Made by a program: the position numbers and the translations under genes. From Candidatus Nitronauta litoralis (GTDB lineage Bacteria > Nitrospinota > Nitrospinia > Nitrospinales > Nitrospinaceae), in NCBI GenBank assembly GCA_015698285.1, contig CP048685.1, forward strand, positions 1,302,001 through 1,366,000: a DNA stretch of 64,000 nt, given 5' to 3'. The notes under the pieces were generated by a model. It worked only from the letters and a program-made list of their open reading frames with translations, was not told the DNA's origin and searched no databases. Shown here one piece after another: positions 423 to 10,721 of the stretch; positions within the stretch are counted from its first letter, which is position 1; the number at the start of each line of letters is the position of its first letter.

Positions 423-2048
423 ATGCCAAAGAATATAGTAATTTGCTCCGACGGAACTGGAAATACCGCGAATAAAAACCGGGGCACCAACGTTTTTAAA
501 ATATTTGAAGCGGTTGATCTTCGAGCCAGAAAATTCCGGCCTCCCCAGGATAAATCAAAAGTCATTGAAAAGCAGATAACCCTTTACGATGATGGGGTAG
601 GTTCCCAAAGTTTCATCGTTTTTAAAGTCCTCGGCGGTGCCTTCGGCTGGGGTTTGAAGCGAAATGTAAAACAGCTCTACACAGAACTCGCACGAGTTTA
701 CAAAAATGGAGACAATCTCTATTTTTTCGGATTCAGCCGCGGAGCTTTTACCATCAGAACGCTCATCGGGTTTATCGCAGAATGTGGAATCCCAAAAAAA
801 TCGGTATTTAAAAACAGGGCGGAGCTCAATCAGCTAGTTGATAATGCCTACAAGCATTACCAAAGAAACTATCGATCCCTGTTAAGCAGGATTTTCTTTC
901 CGGATTGGCTGGGGAATTTTTTACCGAAGGGTCTTTTAAAACGTCTCCCCGGTTTTATTGGCAACCGGCTCCCCTTCAGTGACAACTATGACCTCAATTT
1001 TTATTATCAAACTCCTCCCATAAAATTTGTTGGAGTCTGGGACACCGTTTCCGCAGTCGGGCTGCCTTTTAAATGGGCCACAGATATGTGGAATAAATAT
1101 ATTTATCGTTTTTCTTTCAGGAATAATAATCTTTATACAGGAGTGGAAAAAGCCTGCCACGCCCTTGCGATCGACGATGAAAGACAATCGTTTCATCCCA
1201 TGTTGTGGAACGAAGACCGGACGGCTTATTCCAACCAGGTTGAAAATGGAAAGACTCTCTACCAGAAAACTGAAAAGGACTGGGAAAATGACTGGATAGA
1301 ACAGGTGTGGTTTCCTGGTGCACATTCCAATGTTGGAGGGGGCTATCCTAAACAGGGCATGTCACTGGTCAGCCTTCACTGGATGATGAAGCGTGCCTAT
1401 CATGCGGGTCTTAAATTTTTTGACAAAGACTGGGACTACATCCGTGACCACGGCAACATAACAGACAAGTTGTATAAATCCCGGTCCGGACCGGCGGTTT
1501 ATTACCGTTACCTGCCGCGCAACATTTTTAAAATCTGTAAAACCTATAATGTGGATTGCCATATCCATGAAAGCCTGAGAGATAGAATTTCCCTTGGTTC
1601 AGAAGGCTACGCCCCGGGCAACCTTCCGCCCCGGTTTTACCTGATGGGAGATGAACCGGGTACGCACGATAAATTTTTCTTCAGTAACAAGGCGTTCAGG
1701 GATACCGACCCGGAAAAAGAATCTCCCCTATGGACAAGTTTGCAGCCTTTTATCCAGCTTCGTCGGCAAGGCTATTATCTTTTCCTGTTAACCACTTTGA
1801 CGGCTATTGGTATATACATTAATAATCTGTTTGCCATAGCAAAAATCAAGCTGTCCGGAGAAAGCAACCCGGATTGTCTGGAGTATTTGAAGGTTGCCTG
1901 GGAGGAGTTCAGTACCTGGGACCTCGCCATGAGTTTTTTCAATAATTTTCTTTGGGTGGCCCTGTTATTCGCGTTTGGCATCAGCCTGTTCACCCGGCTG
2001 AAGATGCAGGGTATGCGGACAAAATTCTGGCATCAGCATAGAAAATAA
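423..2048 (+). CDS. DUF2235-family alpha/beta hydrolase with C-terminal membrane segments
   Basis: The 541-residue protein opens with CSDGTGNTA, the typical start of DUF2235 proteins, and has a nucleophile elbow GFSRGAF (GxSxG) near residue 103. A conserved GVWDTVSAVG segment follows near residue 203 and a HSNVGGGYP segment near residue 294. Members of this family include Tle1-type phospholipases secreted by type VI systems as well as many stand-alone hydrolases. Two hydrophobic segments near residues 455-475 and 510-530 suggest membrane anchoring at the C terminus. No type VI genes lie nearby, so an effector role is not supported. Lipid or ester hydrolysis at a membrane is an inference from the family. 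Confidence 0.8.
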   Translation: MPKNIVICSDGTGNTANKNRGTNVFKIFEAVDLRARKFRPPQDKSKVIEKQITLYDDGVGSQSFIVFKVLGGAFGWGLKRNVKQLYTELARVYKNGDNLYFFGFSRGAFTIRTLIGFIAECGIPKKSVFKNRAELNQLVDNAYKHYQRNYRSLLSRIFFPDWLGNFLPKGLLKRLPGFIGNRLPFSDNYDLNFYYQTPPIKFVGVWDTVSAVGLPFKWATDMWNKYIYRFSFRNNNLYTGVEKACHALAIDDERQSFHPMLWNEDRTAYSNQVENGKTLYQKTEKDWENDWIEQVWFPGAHSNVGGGYPKQGMSLVSLHWMMKRAYHAGLKFFDKDWDYIRDHGNITDKLYKSRSGPAVYYRYLPRNIFKICKTYNVDCHIHESLRDRISLGSEGYAPGNLPPRFYLMGDEPGTHDKFFFSNKAFRDTDPEKESPLWTSLQPFIQLRRQGYYLFLLTTLTAIGIYINNLFAIAKIKLSGESNPDCLEYLKVAWEEFSTWDLAMSFFNNFLWVALLFAFGISLFTRLKMQGMRTKFWHQHRK

Positions 2049-2459: not shown

Positions 2460-3647
2460 TTGGATCAGTTAACTCCTGCCCAAATGGCTACCAAAATTCG
2501 CGAACGTTACCCGGAGTTTCGCGGATTTAACTTTCCAAGCGGACTCCTGGCCAGCGCATTTGGGACCTCGGCCATATCTCAATATTCACCGAATAAATCG
2601 AAATTTTTTCACGACTTCTGTCAAATTGGCGCGTTGTTGACTGACGAGGCCTGTTGCATTCGTCACCTGAAAACATTGAACGCTGGAATGATAGCCCAGG
2701 TTAAAAATGAAATATCCAAATTATCCAGTAAATTGCGACGAATTTTCCACGCGAAAGGTTATGAACGCGAAGTCAACAGAACCTTTGAGCAGCTCAGCAA
2801 CCTGAGCCGTCTGGTGAATGTCCGCCCGACCATGTCAGACTACACATCAACTTCAGTACGCGAGATGTTGTCACCCCTCGGAACCTTAGCTGAATGGAGA
2901 CACGCCACCGGGGCACTGGACTTTCGCGGAATCCTCTCCAAGGTGTTGTTTGAAGCGGAAGTGATGTGGGGATTCAACATTGGCGAAGGAGGGGCAAGGC
3001 CGATTCCAACTTTGTCCGGTTTTCTCCACCCAGATAATTTCATCCAGGACCTGCTGGCGCAGGGAAGGCATTTCAAGGACCCGGGTGCTTCCATGAGCCA
3101 CGGTGAATATACACATCGTATCCAATGGTGGATCATTTGCCAGGAACATTATAATGGAGGAACCTATAGGTTAAAGAACGCGCCGATTGATGTCTTCAAA
3201 ATTTTGGGGAAACATGTCACTAAACACTGGAAAGCGGAGATGGGAGAATATGCAGATTTTTTGCCCGAGTCCATGGTGATGCGAACCATGTGGGACCAAC
3301 TCGTGGACTCGGTTCCGGGAGATTTTCCGGAGGCGAATTCCACGCCTAATACAGATTCATTCCAATCTCCTCATAATCTAAATTATTTTATTATGAAACC
3401 CGAGAATCGCAGACTCTTTCCATTGCTACATAATTTTCTGGTCACCCGTTATAACCGCCGCGCCTGGGATACTGTACTTGGAGTCAAGGGTGAGCTTTAC
3501 ATGCATCAAGCATTAATAGACAAATGGCATTATCGGAAAGAACAATTTGAATCGACGGATACAGACCTGGTCGGCATTATTGATATGCTGATCGGCACTT
3601 CAGGAAAAATTGTGGAAACTCCACGTGCCTATTTGAAATGGGATTAA
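2460..3647 (+). CDS. Hypothetical protein, 395 residues, family not recognised
   Basis: A long uninterrupted frame starting at a TTG, with an in-frame ATG nine codons later at 2484 as the alternative. No signal peptide or clear membrane segment is seen. The protein looks globular and mixed in structure, with a charged helical stretch near residues 80-110 (KNEISKLSSKLRRIF) and aromatic-rich segments such as HRIQWWIICQEH near residue 222. No catalytic motif was identified. The gene stands alone between an AT-rich leader and a 429-base gap, so context gives no clue. Frame length and codon use support a real gene; the function is unknown. Confidence 0.6.
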   Translation: MDQLTPAQMATKIRERYPEFRGFNFPSGLLASAFGTSAISQYSPNKSKFFHDFCQIGALLTDEACCIRHLKTLNAGMIAQVKNEISKLSSKLRRIFHAKGYEREVNRTFEQLSNLSRLVNVRPTMSDYTSTSVREMLSPLGTLAEWRHATGALDFRGILSKVLFEAEVMWGFNIGEGGARPIPTLSGFLHPDNFIQDLLAQGRHFKDPGASMSHGEYTHRIQWWIICQEHYNGGTYRLKNAPIDVFKILGKHVTKHWKAEMGEYADFLPESMVMRTMWDQLVDSVPGDFPEANSTPNTDSFQSPHNLNYFIMKPENRRLFPLLHNFLVTRYNRRAWDTVLGVKGELYMHQALIDKWHYRKEQFESTDTDLVGIIDMLIGTSGKIVETPRAYLKWD

Positions 3648-4664: not shown

Positions 4665-6056
4665 TCACTTCCGTCGTCCGCGCGCAACCCATTCGCGTTT
4701 CAGACGCCGGATCTGCGCTTTCACCTGTGGCCCGGCCGTTCCGCCATGAACATTTTTGCGGGCAACAGAATTTTCAATTGAGATAAATTCGAACACGTCC
4801 TTCTCAAACACTTTCGAAATTTTCTTGAGTTGAGGCAGAGTCAATTGTTCCAGCGTGATTCCATTTTCCAGGCAGTGGGCCACCGTCTGCCCGGTCACCT
4901 CATGCGCCTTCCGGAACGGCATGTTTTTCATTACCAGATAATCTGCGATATCGGTGGCAGTCAGGAAACCGCTTTGTGCCAGCGCTTCCGGAGTTAGCGG
5001 GCGGAACTTTGCCGAATCCATCATTCCAGAAAAAACATCAAGACAGGTTTTTACGGTATCGACCGTATCAAACAATGGTTCTTTATCCTCTTGCATGTCC
5101 TTGTTGTAAGCAAGCGGCAGGCCTTTCATGACAGTGAGCAATCCCATAAGGTGCCCGAATACGCGCCCCGTTTTTCCACGCACCAGCTCAGCCGCATCCG
5201 GATTTTTTTTCTGCGGCATGATGCTGCTTCCCGTTGTGAACCTGTCAGACAACTCGAGAAATCCGAATTCACTGGAAGCCCATAAAACAACTTCCTCCGC
5301 CAGGCGACTCATGTGCATCATCAATAATGATGAAAATGAAAGAAACTCAGCGATGAAATCCCGGTCCGCCACGGCATCCAAACTGTTATTGGTGATTTTT
5401 GGAAATTTGAGTAACCTGGCTGTGTAGTGCCGATCGAGAGGAAAGTTCGTTCCGGCAAGAGCGGCGGAACCCAGTGGCATCACATTGACCCGTTTTAAAA
5501 CATCCTCCAACCGGTCGCGATCCCGACTGAACATTTCTACATAAGCAAGCAGGTGATGCGCCAGCAGGATGGGCTGCGCCCGTTGCAAATGCGTGTACCC
5601 TGGGATGATCTGCCGCTCATATTTCTCGGCAAGTCCGAGCATTACCTTGCCAAGTTGTTGCAGGGAGCGATCTATATTTCCAATCTCATCTCGCAGATAT
5701 AACCGGACATCCAGAGCAATCTGGTCGTTTCGACTTCGGCCAGTGTGCAGTTTGCCGCCAAGTGAACCAATCCTTTCTGTCAACCGCCGCTCGATATTCA
5801 TGTGAATGTCTTCAAGAGTTTCGTCTATCTGAAACTTACCTTTTTCAAATTCCTGTTCAATTTTTTTCAACCCGGCGATTATTTTCTGGGCCTCAACCGC
5901 ATTCAATACCTTTGCCTTTTTCAGGGTCTTGCAATGGGCGATACTCCCTTCGATATCATAGGCGTACAATCGCTGGTCATACGAAATGGATGCGGAAAAC
6001 CGCAACATTAAATCATCCAGACTTTCCTTAAACCGACCACTCCAAAGTTGCTTCAT
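4665..6056 (-). CDS. argH: Argininosuccinate lyase
   Basis: A 463-residue protein of full family length. It catalyses the last step of arginine synthesis, splitting argininosuccinate into arginine and fumarate in the cytoplasm. The start (MKQLWSGRFKESLDDLM) and the fumarase/aspartase-superfamily signature GSSIMPQKKNPD near residue 282, which carries the catalytic serine loop, are both present. The TGRSRNDQ and HLQRAQP segments that form the shared active site of the tetramer are also intact. No other arginine gene is in the window. It is followed by the LptM-like lipoprotein 85 bases downstream. Confidence 0.97.
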   Translation of the reverse strand: MKQLWSGRFKESLDDLMLRFSASISYDQRLYAYDIEGSIAHCKTLKKAKVLNAVEAQKIIAGLKKIEQEFEKGKFQIDETLEDIHMNIERRLTERIGSLGGKLHTGRSRNDQIALDVRLYLRDEIGNIDRSLQQLGKVMLGLAEKYERQIIPGYTHLQRAQPILLAHHLLAYVEMFSRDRDRLEDVLKRVNVMPLGSAALAGTNFPLDRHYTARLLKFPKITNNSLDAVADRDFIAEFLSFSSLLMMHMSRLAEEVVLWASSEFGFLELSDRFTTGSSIMPQKKNPDAAELVRGKTGRVFGHLMGLLTVMKGLPLAYNKDMQEDKEPLFDTVDTVKTCLDVFSGMMDSAKFRPLTPEALAQSGFLTATDIADYLVMKNMPFRKAHEVTGQTVAHCLENGITLEQLTLPQLKKISKVFEKDVFEFISIENSVARKNVHGGTAGPQVKAQIRRLKREWVARGRRK

Positions 6057-6128: not shown

Positions 6129-7283
6129 TCACAATGCACCCACCAATTGACCTGCCTGAGAGGCGTTTCCCGCCCATTTATCTTGAAGCACAATGTTCAT
6201 CTTTGCCCCTATTGGAATGACACGACCAAGAAACTCCAGGAACCACTCCTGAATATTGGGACACCCCGCGCTTCCATTTCGCCAGTCAAAATTCTTTTTA
6301 AAAAATTCGTTGAAGCGGGTCACATTGACACCGTGAATTCCATAACTGCCGGGTACCGGAGGCCCCAACCGCTTCAAACCCAGCCACCAGTGGCCGATTT
6401 CGTGATCGGGGTGCCCAAAGGGAATTTTGCGAACCCGGGTTTTCCCATTCACCTCTTCCTTTTTGTACCAGGTGGGTTCGTACACTTTGTTCTTTACCTG
6501 GTATTCACCAAGAGGTGTTTCTTCACCTTGACGCCCGAAGATCGCTTCGATTTCAAGAATCTGGTCGTTGTTATAATAAATACGGATCACACCGGTTTCA
6601 ATGATGCCAAGGAGGTACCATTTTTCCGGATCCGTATCATAACGTGCCAGTTCCTTTCCGGAAAATTTCAACGAAACGCCACCGGAAACTTTTTTATAAC
6701 TTGTGCGCGAGTCTCCGTATATCTGCTTTAAAATGTATTTCAAATTTTCTGTCACCTTGTTGTTCAAAATCATATGATCCACTGTGCTCGCCAGTTCCTG
6801 GTTTTCCTCTCGAGTCTTTTGGAGCTGGGTGGTGGTGACATTCAAATCCTTTTCGATCCGCGCTAACTCCTCCTTGGAAACAAGGCCCATTTCATTGAGC
6901 TGGGCGTACCATGCTAAATCAACTTTCTGGCGACCCGATTCTCCCAACACGATCTGGTAGATCAAAATTCCAACAAGTGCCAGGGATAGACCTGCAAGCG
7001 CCAACCCTTGAACCCATTGTTTTACCCTGTTGGAAAGGCGGTACCGGACCACTTCGCGTGCAACCTTTTTATCTTTTTCTTCCAGCGCCTGAAACTGCGC
7101 ACCTTGAAATTTCCCGTACAAACGGCTTTCGAGAGAGGAAAGGGAGCTTAAGTGAGTATGCAGTTTCCGGATGATCGCGTTCAGGTTTTCTCGCGTAGCC
7201 CGATCGTAACTCCCCTGTGGATTCTTATTGGCGATCAGGTTGTATTCTGTCAGCGATAAAATGTTGAGCTTGTTCGCGTCCAT
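6129..7283 (-). CDS. L,D-transpeptidase (YkuD) with N-terminal docking-like domain and membrane anchor
   Basis: The chosen ATG gives 384 residues; a longer frame adds 20 unconvincing residues and lacks the domain shared with the bactofilin. The first 45 residues, with the core GSYDRATRENL, match the N terminus of the bactofilin encoded at 7849-8427. A transmembrane helix follows near residues 100-125, then a coiled-coil-like stretch near 135-175. The C-terminal YkuD domain carries GIHGVN and SAGCPNI, the His and Cys of L,D-transpeptidases. The enzyme should make 3-3 crosslinks or attach proteins to peptidoglycan in the periplasm, with its N terminus in the cytoplasm. A Fic pseudogene separates it from the bactofilin gene. 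Confidence 0.85.
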   Translation of the reverse strand: MDANKLNILSLTEYNLIANKNPQGSYDRATRENLNAIIRKLHTHLSSLSSLESRLYGKFQGAQFQALEEKDKKVAREVVRYRLSNRVKQWVQGLALAGLSLALVGILIYQIVLGESGRQKVDLAWYAQLNEMGLVSKEELARIEKDLNVTTTQLQKTREENQELASTVDHMILNNKVTENLKYILKQIYGDSRTSYKKVSGGVSLKFSGKELARYDTDPEKWYLLGIIETGVIRIYYNNDQILEIEAIFGRQGEETPLGEYQVKNKVYEPTWYKKEEVNGKTRVRKIPFGHPDHEIGHWWLGLKRLGPPVPGSYGIHGVNVTRFNEFFKKNFDWRNGSAGCPNIQEWFLEFLGRVIPIGAKMNIVLQDKWAGNASQAGQLVGAL

Positions 7284-7291
7284 TGTTCTGA

Positions 7292-7745
7292 TTATAAATT
7301 GATTAAAGGTGGATAGCCAAATACATGATGTTTCCCCTCCCAATAATCCTCAAGAATTCCTGAAGCGGAAAGTTCTTTTAGATGTGAAATTGCAGTCTGT
7401 ATATGAACTTTTTGTGCTTTCCCATAAATTGTGGGAGTTGTCAAAGGCCATGTAAAGATTGGAATTGCCACATCTTGTACATTCATTTAATGATGCCTTG
7501 TTTCCAGTTCATTTTCCGTCTAAGAAAGGATGAATGGCCTCAAACTGGTAATGATCCATGGCACATTTAATAAAAGAATAGTTCCGGTTCTCATCCGGGG
7601 TGTTAACAATTTTCCCCCAGTTTTGTATCAGGCTGGCAATATCCGGAACCGAAGGCGGATTATAAATTATGTTTCCGGTTTTCGTATTCCTGATAAAATT
7701 TTTGTTGCTGACGATATCCTCTTGGGTTCTTAAAAAGCTTTTTAT
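7292..7745 (-). pseudogene. Fic/DOC-family protein, internally deleted pseudogene
   Basis: The upstream part, read on the minus strand to a stop at 7509, encodes NPPSVPDIASLIQNW and then DHYQFEAIHPFLDGK, the start of the Fic motif HPFxxGNGR. The frame stops exactly where GNGR should follow. A second fragment, 7486-7292, encodes a winged-helix-like end (TIYGKAQKVHIQTAISHL) of the type found at the C terminus of Fic proteins. Roughly 100 residues between the two, including the AMP-transferase core, are missing. It is therefore not expected to be active. It lies inside the envelope cluster, between the transpeptidase and bactofilin genes. Confidence 0.75.
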
Positions 7746-7848
7746 GAATCCCTAAAATTAATCTTAAGGAAAGTGTTGCTCATTTTGGAAGTTCCACACA
7801 ATATATAGGTCATATGAAGAAAAAGGAGTGTAAGAGGAAAATGGCTTT

Positions 7849-8427
7849 CTAATCGCTTGCCTGGGAAGAACCCATCCCTAGCAGGCTTTTGAAACTGTTC
7901 CAGGCGGTGGTGGGTTTGGGTTTTAGTTCCGGCTCCAGTCGGCAATGCCCCATGAAACGGGCTCCGTCTTCAATTTGCAGGGTTGCGGCTTCGACGTTCC
8001 CTTCAATCCGGCCATTCGCACAAAGATGCACCGTTCCTCGCGCGACAATATCCCCTTTGATAACTCCCCGGCAAACAATAGAAGCGGCGGTTACCTTTCC
8101 AACCACGGTCCCGGTATCGGCAACAACCAGGCCGCCCCCCAGAATCGCGTCGGCTTCATGACGACCTTCAACGAGCATTCCTCCGGAAATATCCACAGTA
8201 TGCTGGCTGACCGTACCCTTGGGAAAACGAAGCCCAAGAGTATGGCGTTTGTGTTTCCTTAATAAATCTGCTTCCGGACGAGAGCAATCTTTACTGAAGT
8301 TTTCAAGTTTCTGAACAAGTCGCAACAACTGATCCCGCGTATCACGGTCATAAAAACCATCGGGGTCTGCGTCAAGCAGGAGGTGAAACTGATCCGCTGT
8401 GAGGACCATCAATTTTGGAATGTCCAT
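7849..8427 (-). CDS. Bactofilin-family polymer-forming protein with N-terminal docking-like domain
   Basis: Residues about 75-170 form a glycine- and valine-rich right-handed beta-helix typical of bactofilins (SGGMLVEGRHEADAILGGG, GDIVARGTVHLCANGRIEG). These proteins polymerise without nucleotide into cytoplasmic filaments that position peptidoglycan enzymes. The first 45 residues (core GFYDRDTRDQL) are unusual and match the N terminus of the L,D-transpeptidase encoded at 6129-7283. The short C-terminal tail is disordered. The gene starts 6 bases after the MinD/ParA-like gene, so the two are almost certainly cotranscribed. Confidence 0.85.
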   Translation of the reverse strand: MDIPKLMVLTADQFHLLLDADPDGFYDRDTRDQLLRLVQKLENFSKDCSRPEADLLRKHKRHTLGLRFPKGTVSQHTVDISGGMLVEGRHEADAILGGGLVVADTGTVVGKVTAASIVCRGVIKGDIVARGTVHLCANGRIEGNVEAATLQIEDGARFMGHCRLEPELKPKPTTAWNSFKSLLGMGSSQASD

Positions 8428-8433
8428 CAGAAA

Positions 8434-9750
8434 TTAACCGAATACGCTTGCAATGCGGACCAGTGGTTTGGATAGCCCTCCGCTGCCAAGCCGGGTGAGG
8501 TACTTCAAAATTTCCTTGTCACTGTTTGCCAAGGTGGGAGATTGAGAATTTTCGGTGAGGATGCTTTCTGCAACACCGTTCATGCGGGCGGTCAGGCTCA
8601 TGTCTTTGTCGTAAAACAGAGCACCACGGTTGTTAGTGATGTTGATGACTTTATGATGCGGCAACAGACCCACGATATGAATCCGGTCCTTATACGTTTC
8701 GTATTTGTCCAGCGTATCCAGGTATTCCCGTAAACGGCGTAAGGCCTCCACCACTTCTTTCGATTCCGTCGAACGATTGAACAGTATTCCGAAACGCTTC
8801 TGCTTAATAGAGGAAAGAAACTCAACTTCGCCTGCACTCATTGTCATTCGGTTGGCGAATTCCTTATCGAGTCCGGTAAGAGCTCCGCTCTGGTAGTCAT
8901 TGCAAAAGTCTTCATAGTAATCAATAAATGAATGCAACGCATCAATGCTGCCGTTGATGGCTATGGAATTACTGAGGTCAAATACAAACATGACCTGATC
9001 GATCACATTCATCAGTGAAGTCAGGTGGTTCACGCCACCTGCCGGGGTATCCAGAATGACATGATCGAATTTATCAAACACCTGATTCAAAAACTCAAGA
9101 AACATCAACAGGAAGGCCGGTTCATTGATCCGTTTTCTGTGCACCCGCTTGCCGAGGATCGGCACTTCCCCGCCGATAATACTGAACCCGTATTCTTCAA
9201 TGAAATTAATGTATTCGTCTGGTAGGGGTTGGGAGTCCTGCTCCAACTCGTGCAAGACCGAACGGAATTTTCCGCTGTCCAGCTTGTTCAAAATTAAATC
9301 CAGTTTGGAAATGTCTGCGAGCGAATGAATTTCTCCCCGCATCAGGAACAGTTCATGAAGAAGATCGCCAAATTCAAATTCGCTGAAGCGGAACAGATCG
9401 GCATTCAAGCTTTTATAAAGAGCAAAACTACGTGCAAGGCGTTCATCGTCCAGTTCACATTCTCCTGCAATATGCGCCTGGAAACGGGTTAACACCTGAT
9501 ACAGCGACCGCAGAAAATCCACTTGGTAAGTTTGATTGGCCAAAGTACTGAACAGATCAAAAAATGTTTTCGGCGGATGGCTGTCGAGCAGACTGGAGAT
9601 GGTTGGAAGACGAAGATCCAGATCGATCAGGCACACCCCGCGACCGTTCCCACTTTTCTTCAAGGCCTTTGTCAAAGCCGCAGTGGTGTTGATCGACAAG
9701 GTGGTTTTGCCGATTCCCCCCTTGGGCCCGATAACCGAGACAATCCCCAT
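8434..9750 (-). CDS. MinD/ParA-like ATPase with large insertion
   Basis: A 438-residue P-loop ATPase opening with the deviant Walker A motif KGGIGKTT. The second conserved aspartate segment (CLIDLDLRLP) is at residues 40-50 and the switch segment HVILDTPAGG near residue 235. Between the last two is an insertion of about 150 mostly helical residues, much longer than in standard MinD or ParA (about 260-270 residues in total). Such ATPases position cargo on the nucleoid or membrane. No ParB gene is adjacent. It sits in a tight run rsmI / this gene / bactofilin with 6-base gaps, suggesting that it positions the bactofilin or envelope enzymes. That role is inferred. Confidence 0.8.
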   Translation of the reverse strand: MGIVSVIGPKGGIGKTTLSINTTAALTKALKKSGNGRGVCLIDLDLRLPTISSLLDSHPPKTFFDLFSTLANQTYQVDFLRSLYQVLTRFQAHIAGECELDDERLARSFALYKSLNADLFRFSEFEFGDLLHELFLMRGEIHSLADISKLDLILNKLDSGKFRSVLHELEQDSQPLPDEYINFIEEYGFSIIGGEVPILGKRVHRKRINEPAFLLMFLEFLNQVFDKFDHVILDTPAGGVNHLTSLMNVIDQVMFVFDLSNSIAINGSIDALHSFIDYYEDFCNDYQSGALTGLDKEFANRMTMSAGEVEFLSSIKQKRFGILFNRSTESKEVVEALRRLREYLDTLDKYETYKDRIHIVGLLPHHKVINITNNRGALFYDKDMSLTARMNGVAESILTENSQSPTLANSDKEILKYLTRLGSGGLSKPLVRIASVFG

Positions 9751-9756
9751 ACTTCT

Positions 9757-10455
9757 TTACTCTCCCTTTTTCGAATTTGCCCCGGCAACAATCAGGGTGA
9801 TTTCGCCTTTCCACTTACGCTCCGCATGCGTCTCGATCAGTTCCTCGAGAGTCCCGCGGTTTATTTCTTCATGCAGCTTGGTCATTTCGCGCGCAATAGC
9901 CGCTTCCCTGTTACCGAACACTCCCAGAATATCTGCCAGTGTTTTTCCAATCCGGTGGGGCGATTCAAAAAACACAACGGTGCAGGGTTGTGTTGCCAGC
10001 CAGGTCAGCCGTGTTGACCGACCCTTTTTCCGCGGAAGAAACCCTTCGAAAAGAAACCGGTCGGTTGGCAACCCCGAGACCACAAGTCCCGACAACAAGG
10101 CCGAGGCTCCCGGAATGGATTCCACCTCGATTCCCTCTTCGAGGGCTGCTTTTACCAGGTGGTATAGGGGATCGGATACTCCCGGGGTGCCAGCATCCGA
10201 AACCAGGGCAATATTTTCCCCGTTTTCCATTCGGCGGACAAATTCACGTCCTTTCGGAATTTTGTTGTATGAGTTGTAACTCGACAGGGGGGTTTTGAGG
10301 TTGTAATGACTCAGCAGAATCCGGGTCCGGCGGGTGTCTTCGGCCGCGATACAATCGACTTCCCCCAGGGTTTCGACACCCCGAAAAGTAAAATCCTTGA
10401 GATTGCCAATAGGAGTACTGACTACAAAAAGTCTGCCCTTGCCGCGTTCCGTCAT
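9757..10455 (-). CDS. rsmI: 16S rRNA (cytidine-1402 2'-O)-methyltransferase
   Basis: A tetrapyrrole-methylase-fold protein with the RsmI hallmarks GRLFVVSTPIGNL at the start, AAEDTRRTRILLSHY, ALVSDAGTPGVSDP and IPGASALLSGLVVSGLP. It methylates the ribose of C1402 in 16S rRNA using S-adenosylmethionine. I chose the ATG at 10455 (MTERGKGRLF), 232 residues; a TTG at 10494 would add 13 residues without family resemblance. It heads the rsmI / MinD-like / bactofilin run on the minus strand, with a 6-base gap to the next gene. Confidence 0.95.
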   Translation of the reverse strand: MTERGKGRLFVVSTPIGNLKDFTFRGVETLGEVDCIAAEDTRRTRILLSHYNLKTPLSSYNSYNKIPKGREFVRRMENGENIALVSDAGTPGVSDPLYHLVKAALEEGIEVESIPGASALLSGLVVSGLPTDRFLFEGFLPRKKGRSTRLTWLATQPCTVVFFESPHRIGKTLADILGVFGNREAAIAREMTKLHEEINRGTLEELIETHAERKWKGEITLIVAGANSKKGE

Positions 10456-10721
10456 ACTAATCGCTATTTTAGCCGGGGGGTGACATGATGGCAATAACTA
10501 TTTGGAAAAGAAGCGATTGTTGTGTAAGCTGAATGCTGATCCCCCCGACTACTATAGAGGGACCCGTAAGCGGCTACAAATAGTCGTTATGGCGGAGCTC
10601 CCTGATGCGACCCTTGCCCGGTTTAGTGGAGCAAATGGTTTTCATATTTCCGCCGCATCCAGTTCTAACAATATTTTGAATAATGTTAAGCTCAAAGACA
10701 TACGACAAAGAGAATAGGACG

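Follow-up and report, generated by a model that had tools for sequence, protein, structure and literature searches.

Two bactofilin scaffolds are described in which the cytoplasmic tail of a cell-wall enzyme binds the filament protein, namely BacA with the N-terminal cytoplasmic tail of PbpC in Caulobacter (PMC12448750) and BacA with the tail of LmdC (PMC10945521); the binding of client proteins by such scaffolds is described as still poorly understood (PMC12448750). The locus analysed here resembles BacA-PbpC in that a single-pass wall enzyme with an N-terminal cytoplasmic tail would be brought to a bactofilin, and differs in that a 13-residue peptide binds the bactofilin core there, whereas here the same predicted folded domain is carried by both proteins and the enzyme is a putative L,D-transpeptidase (PMC12448750). 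With bactofilin-LmdC of Hyphomonas and Rhodospirillum it has in common adjoining genes and the build of the enzyme (cytoplasmic tail, one transmembrane helix, coiled coil and periplasmic catalytic domain), but LmdC is an M23 hydrolase rather than a YkuD enzyme, and the accessible part of that report mentions no shared domain (PMC10945521). The bactofilins, ParABS and PadC of Myxococcus are similar in that a bactofilin adjoins parAB and a Walker-type ATPase is tied to the bactofilin scaffold; they differ in using the adapter PadC as the link, the available text describing neither a wall enzyme nor a leader domain (PMC5703909). The known clients show that the cytoplasmic tail of a wall enzyme can bind bactofilin, by a different type of contact. 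No report of a domain shared by bactofilin and L,D-transpeptidase was found in open papers searched at the level of title and abstract.

Organisation of the cassette

The window is the whole stretch of DNA analysed, 64,000 nucleotides of Candidatus Nitronauta litoralis. The features in question, by window position, are as follows.

4665..6056, minus strand: argH, near-constant downstream neighbour of the cassette (ORF list, locus clustering)
6129..7283, minus strand: putative L,D-transpeptidase (Ldt) with leader, 384 aa from ATG 7283 (PF03734, E 2e-10; H317 and C341 invariant)
6201..6584, minus strand: YkuD catalytic domain, Ldt residues 234-361, periplasmic by N-in topology (Pfam, motif conservation, Foldseek)
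6948..7004, minus strand: predicted Ldt transmembrane helix, about residues 94-112 (hydrophobicity; N-terminal side positive)
7080..7283, minus strand: Ldt leader, residues 1-68 (BLASTP, alignment, AlphaFold, profile comparison)
7295..7788, minus strand: decayed Fic-family gene between bactofilin and Ldt, outside the system (sister genome G002 has it intact at the corresponding position)
7849..8427, minus strand: bactofilin 2 with leader, 192 aa (PF04519, E 5e-18; AlphaFold model)
7942..8220, minus strand: bactofilin core PF04519, residues 70-162 (Pfam)
8230..8427, minus strand: bactofilin leader, residues 1-66, three predicted helices (BLASTP, alignment, AlphaFold, profile comparison)
8434..9750, minus strand: MinD/ParA-like ATPase, 438 aa, first cassette gene, ending 6 bp before the bactofilin (Pfam AAA_31/CbiA)
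9757..10494, minus strand: rsmI, near-constant upstream neighbour of the cassette (ORF list, locus clustering, Pfam)

The bactofilin core scored 65.6 bits against the curated PF04519 cut-off of 27.9, and was modelled as a beta-helix like that of the Thermus bactofilin 6rib (best Foldseek matches 6rib, 2n3d and 6ria, probability 1.00, E about 0.01-0.03). For the Ldt, the start is ATG 7283 (MDANKL), TTG 7343 merely opening the mechanical ORF upstream. Its YkuD domain scored 41.9 bits against a curated cut-off of 23.4 and matched Ldt structures in Foldseek (E 1.5e-7). The usual YkuD catalytic motif is HG ... SxGC followed by Arg; here the motif reads SAGCPN, so that the Arg after Cys is missing, and the catalytic H317 and C341 are invariant in 34 relatives. 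A YkuD match was present in 43 of 61 genomes, 41 of them with exactly one, G014 with two and G004 with two cassette copies; the window genome has no YkuD protein besides the leadered Ldt, and the same is true of nearly every genome that has any. The ATPase carries a deviant Walker A motif (GPKGGIGKTT) and a Walker B motif (DTPAG), both conserved in 29 relatives, and lies above the cut-offs for AAA_31 and CbiA. Because it reached 33.0 bits against TIGR01968 (MinD equivalog), under the cut-off of 212.9, it is called MinD/ParA-like and not MinD.

An initial bactofilin search of 61 genomes gave 40 loci, containing 68 leaders. By ORF clustering and Pfam names, the order in most of these loci is etf genes, rsmG, parA, parB, leaderless bactofilin, rsmI, ATPase, leadered bactofilin, leadered Ldt and argH. 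The window genome differs in that parAB and the leaderless bactofilin stand apart, near G000:C1:1,374,000 and about 64 kb from the cassette, which is still flanked by rsmI and argH. A third bactofilin domain of this genome, also leaderless, lies in a 675-aa open frame (L002 1501-1788; G000:C1:3345804-3346091). No leadered bactofilin stands between ATPase and Ldt in the five genomes of genus g9 that have both, nor in G027, G035, G044 and G050. The intact Fic-family gene of G002 (HPFMDGNGRTGR) occupies L035 3289-4404 (-), between bactofilin and Ldt. Elsewhere in the window, 423-2048 (+) matches the T6SS phospholipase effector Tle1-like catalytic domain (PF09994, E 2.9e-69), and 2460-3647 (+) encodes a protein with DUF5636 (PF18686, E 3.5e-16).

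Homology, fold and distribution of the leader

Residues 1-60 of the two window proteins were aligned by BLASTP without gaps at 33% identity (E 5e-9), and the Smith-Waterman score of the leader pair was 93, compared with a mean of 20 for shuffled sequences (sd 3.8, maximum 45, n=5000), that is, 19 sd above the mean. When profiles of 34 bactofilin and 34 Ldt leaders were compared, a probability of 99.8% was obtained (E 2.7e-28), with 0.2% for the reversed control. The two leaders are thus, as judged from their sequences, one homologous domain, and the N-terminal segment which the initial annotation had seen in both proteins stands; its length of 45 residues does not, since similarity across the aligned leader set reaches residue ~63-70 and the domain is ~63-70 residues long. 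The MDxxKL, GxYDRxTRxxL and KL pattern given there was read in both window leaders as MDxxKL...P-G-YDR-TR..L....KL, and a KFxxAxF segment is also common to both leader types in most relatives. The C-terminal parts proved unrelated, as had been proposed, being assigned by Pfam to YkuD (PF03734) in the Ldt and to bactofilin (PF04519) in the other protein.

The leader was rejected as a known domain, as Pfam gave no convincing family (best chance-level match E 0.006, on 3 of 36 leaders), PDB sequences gave no match (best E 0.18) and NCBIfam matched neither the bactofilin nor the Ldt. A motif spotted by eye prompted a comparison of the leader alignment with PF01471 (PG_binding_1; segments L130-L146). 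The leader has a short DG-x-x-G-x-x-T-like stretch, and its hhalign probability against PF01471 was 18.4%, or 31.5% for bactofilin leaders alone, which is weak though above the reversed and unrelated controls; the similarity spans 26 columns only, PF01471 is absent from the Pfam families matched by any of the 36 leaders, and the leader is predicted to be cytoplasmic. Half a PG_binding_1 repeat was therefore kept as a lead only.

AlphaFold placed helices at residues 11-19, 28-43 and 50-60 of the bactofilin leader (pLDDT about 94-96) and at 12-18, 28-43 and 50-59 of the Ldt leader, the latter at low confidence (pLDDT about 36-66). Unrelated folds, which the initial annotation had named as a result that would speak against a common domain, were accordingly not what was predicted: both leaders have three helices at the same positions, with the Ldt model of low confidence. 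In every Ldt, the 19-residue stretch of highest hydrophobicity falls around residues 89-113, flanked by a net charge of +3 to +6 on its N-terminal side and of -4 to +1 on its C-terminal side. Because positive residues precede the transmembrane helix, the positive-inside rule puts the Ldt leader in the cytoplasm, so that both copies are predicted to face that compartment.

With a profile built from both leaders, exactly two matches were found in the 3.9 Mb genome, both in the window. The leader was present in 48 of 77 Nitrospinota genomes, every one of the same genus, family or order, and was absent from 13 genomes of other orders of the class; no third protein with a leader was found in the 77 genomes, and none was found on plasmids. 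A GTDB scan with the Ldt-leader alignment, using exact short patterns that may overlook more remote leaders outside the phylum, confirmed 36 loci; their titles read Nitrospina, Nitrospinaceae, Nitrospinae, Nitrospinia or Nitrospinota, apart from one that reads Nitrospirae bacterium. The wide occurrence away from bactofilin, Ldt and ATPase that had been raised against the idea was not seen, the leader being on no other protein in the genomes searched. Both proteins carry it in 35 of the 48 genomes, only the Ldt in nine (G027, G035, G037, G044, G048, G050, G055, G059 and G064) and only the bactofilin in four (G021, G031, G042 and G043), as tallied by open-frame length in one phylum in which many genomes are drafts and some are incomplete.

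The bactofilin leaders (mean identity 43%) diverge much faster than the Ldt leaders (65%). The YDRxTR motif is lost or altered in the bactofilin copy of G017, G038, G021 and G043, and in genus g8 the bactofilin leader is without YDRxTR and shows lower conservation than the core. Exchange by gene conversion was rejected for the two leaders, as pairs from within a genome are no more alike than pairs from different genomes (permutation p 0.97); the weakly resolved tree is compatible with bactofilin and Ldt leaders having parted once, at an early date. By NG86, with several dS values close to saturation and estimates from single pairs only approximate, the bactofilin leader of G031/G042, which are without ATPase and Ldt, had a dN/dS of 0.15 and the remainder of the protein one of 0.30; Ldt leaders without a leadered bactofilin gave 0.18-0.41. 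These estimates indicate that purifying selection acts on each leader also in genomes that lack the other leadered protein.

These data bear on an explanation in which a structural module, serving for instance in oligomerisation or capping, was duplicated to give the leaders and is used separately by each protein, so that homology would imply no common location. Retention of each leader without the other, and the different rates and motif retention of the two copies, would be expected of such a module; it is difficult to see why a generic oligomerisation domain should be confined, across 77 genomes, to two proteins of a single cassette, and this explanation is considered distinctly unlikely.

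Co-occurrence and candidate partners

Matches to the ATPase came from 44 genomes and matches to the Ldt from 46; in 43 the ATPase accompanies an intact Ldt. G019 and G057 have lost the ATPase and retain no more of the Ldt than broken, decaying pieces. In G058 the ATPase stands without the Ldt, and its match stops 74 bases short of a contig end; in G039 the Ldt stands without the ATPase, on a short contig of which the leadered bactofilin is the first listed gene. Contig ends apart, ATPase and intact Ldt thus occur together. Since genera g4, g8, g9 and g11 each include genomes with and without the pair, joint loss probably happened more than once, though some genomes are incomplete.

The initial annotation had proposed that both leaders bind the adjacent MinD/ParA-like ATPase, which would bring filament and enzyme to one place. 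The shared, predicted cytoplasmic domain beside the ATPase holds, and the joint occurrence in 43 genomes (G058 and G039 being exceptions at contig ends), the decay of the Ldt in G019 and G057 and the good conservation of both Ldt leaders and ATPase all argue for a connection. G021, G043, G031 and G042, of two genera, retain the leadered bactofilin without ATPase and without Ldt, with the low leader dN/dS in G031/G042 given above. As the bactofilin leader survives without ATPase or Ldt, and the Ldt leader without leadered bactofilin, the ATPase cannot be the sole partner of both, and its role as common partner was not supported; in its full form the proposal is judged unlikely. Because ATPase and Ldt co-occur, contig ends apart, the ATPase stays a good candidate for the partner of the Ldt leader.

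A partner present throughout the order, either the leaderless bactofilin beside parAB or ParA/ParB, might instead bind both leaders and link filament and enzyme to the chromosome-segregation machinery or scaffold. Among relatives with contigs long enough to show it, nearly all, one-leader genomes included, have parA, parB and the leaderless bactofilin beside the cassette or the place where it would be. In Myxococcus, parAB is closely followed downstream by bacM, and the bactofilins BacNOP organise ParABS (PMC5703909). G012, G015, G030 and others nevertheless keep parAB and the leaderless bactofilin with no leader, and such a third component is regarded as improbable.

Proposed docking of filament and enzyme

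A partner of both leaders must exist where one leadered protein stands alone, and the leader itself qualifies; self-association is favoured for this reason. The shared leader suggests that filament and Ldt are placed together, and like-with-like docking with an ATPase-positioned assembly is the best single reading, put forward tentatively and at somewhat less than an even chance. On this reading the leader would be a small cytoplasmic domain of three helices that serves for docking; its duplication in the order's ancestor would have left one copy on bactofilin and the other on the usually single YkuD transpeptidase. Bactofilin leaders would project from the filament and pair with one another and with the leaders of the membrane-anchored Ldt, so that periplasmic 3-3 cross-linking would be limited to the site of the filament, and the adjacent MinD/ParA-like ATPase would position or dissolve the filament-enzyme assembly. 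Any binding, a common location of the two proteins, the part played by the ATPase and the activity of the Ldt are all inferred.

In favour of like-with-like docking are the profile homology of the leaders, their predicted cytoplasmic position and matching predicted helices, a tree that allows one early split, the two leader copies per genome as a rule, with none on other proteins, and the fixed gene order ATPase-bactofilin-Ldt, with PbpC and LmdC as precedents. Purifying selection on a leader whose counterpart is absent would also fit, as a self-associating module is proposed to need no third partner. The faster divergence of bactofilin leaders, the fact that leaders of one genome are no more alike than leaders of different genomes, the lost or altered YDRxTR in four genomes and the low-confidence Ldt model were counted against it. 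Joint docking is not a requirement in every genome, since the leadered bactofilin is missing from nine with a leadered Ldt, and the leadered Ldt from four with a leadered bactofilin.

A single self-associating cytoplasmic domain on both a filament and the sole YkuD enzyme, with a ParA-type ATPase in the same operon, is possible but doubtful. The candidate recruitment element would be a defined, predicted folded and paralogous domain on both partners. As most of these genomes have no YkuD protein other than the Ldt, a link between the cytoskeleton and 3-3 cross-linking would be testable through one small domain, and the natural losses in several genera offer ready-made comparisons.
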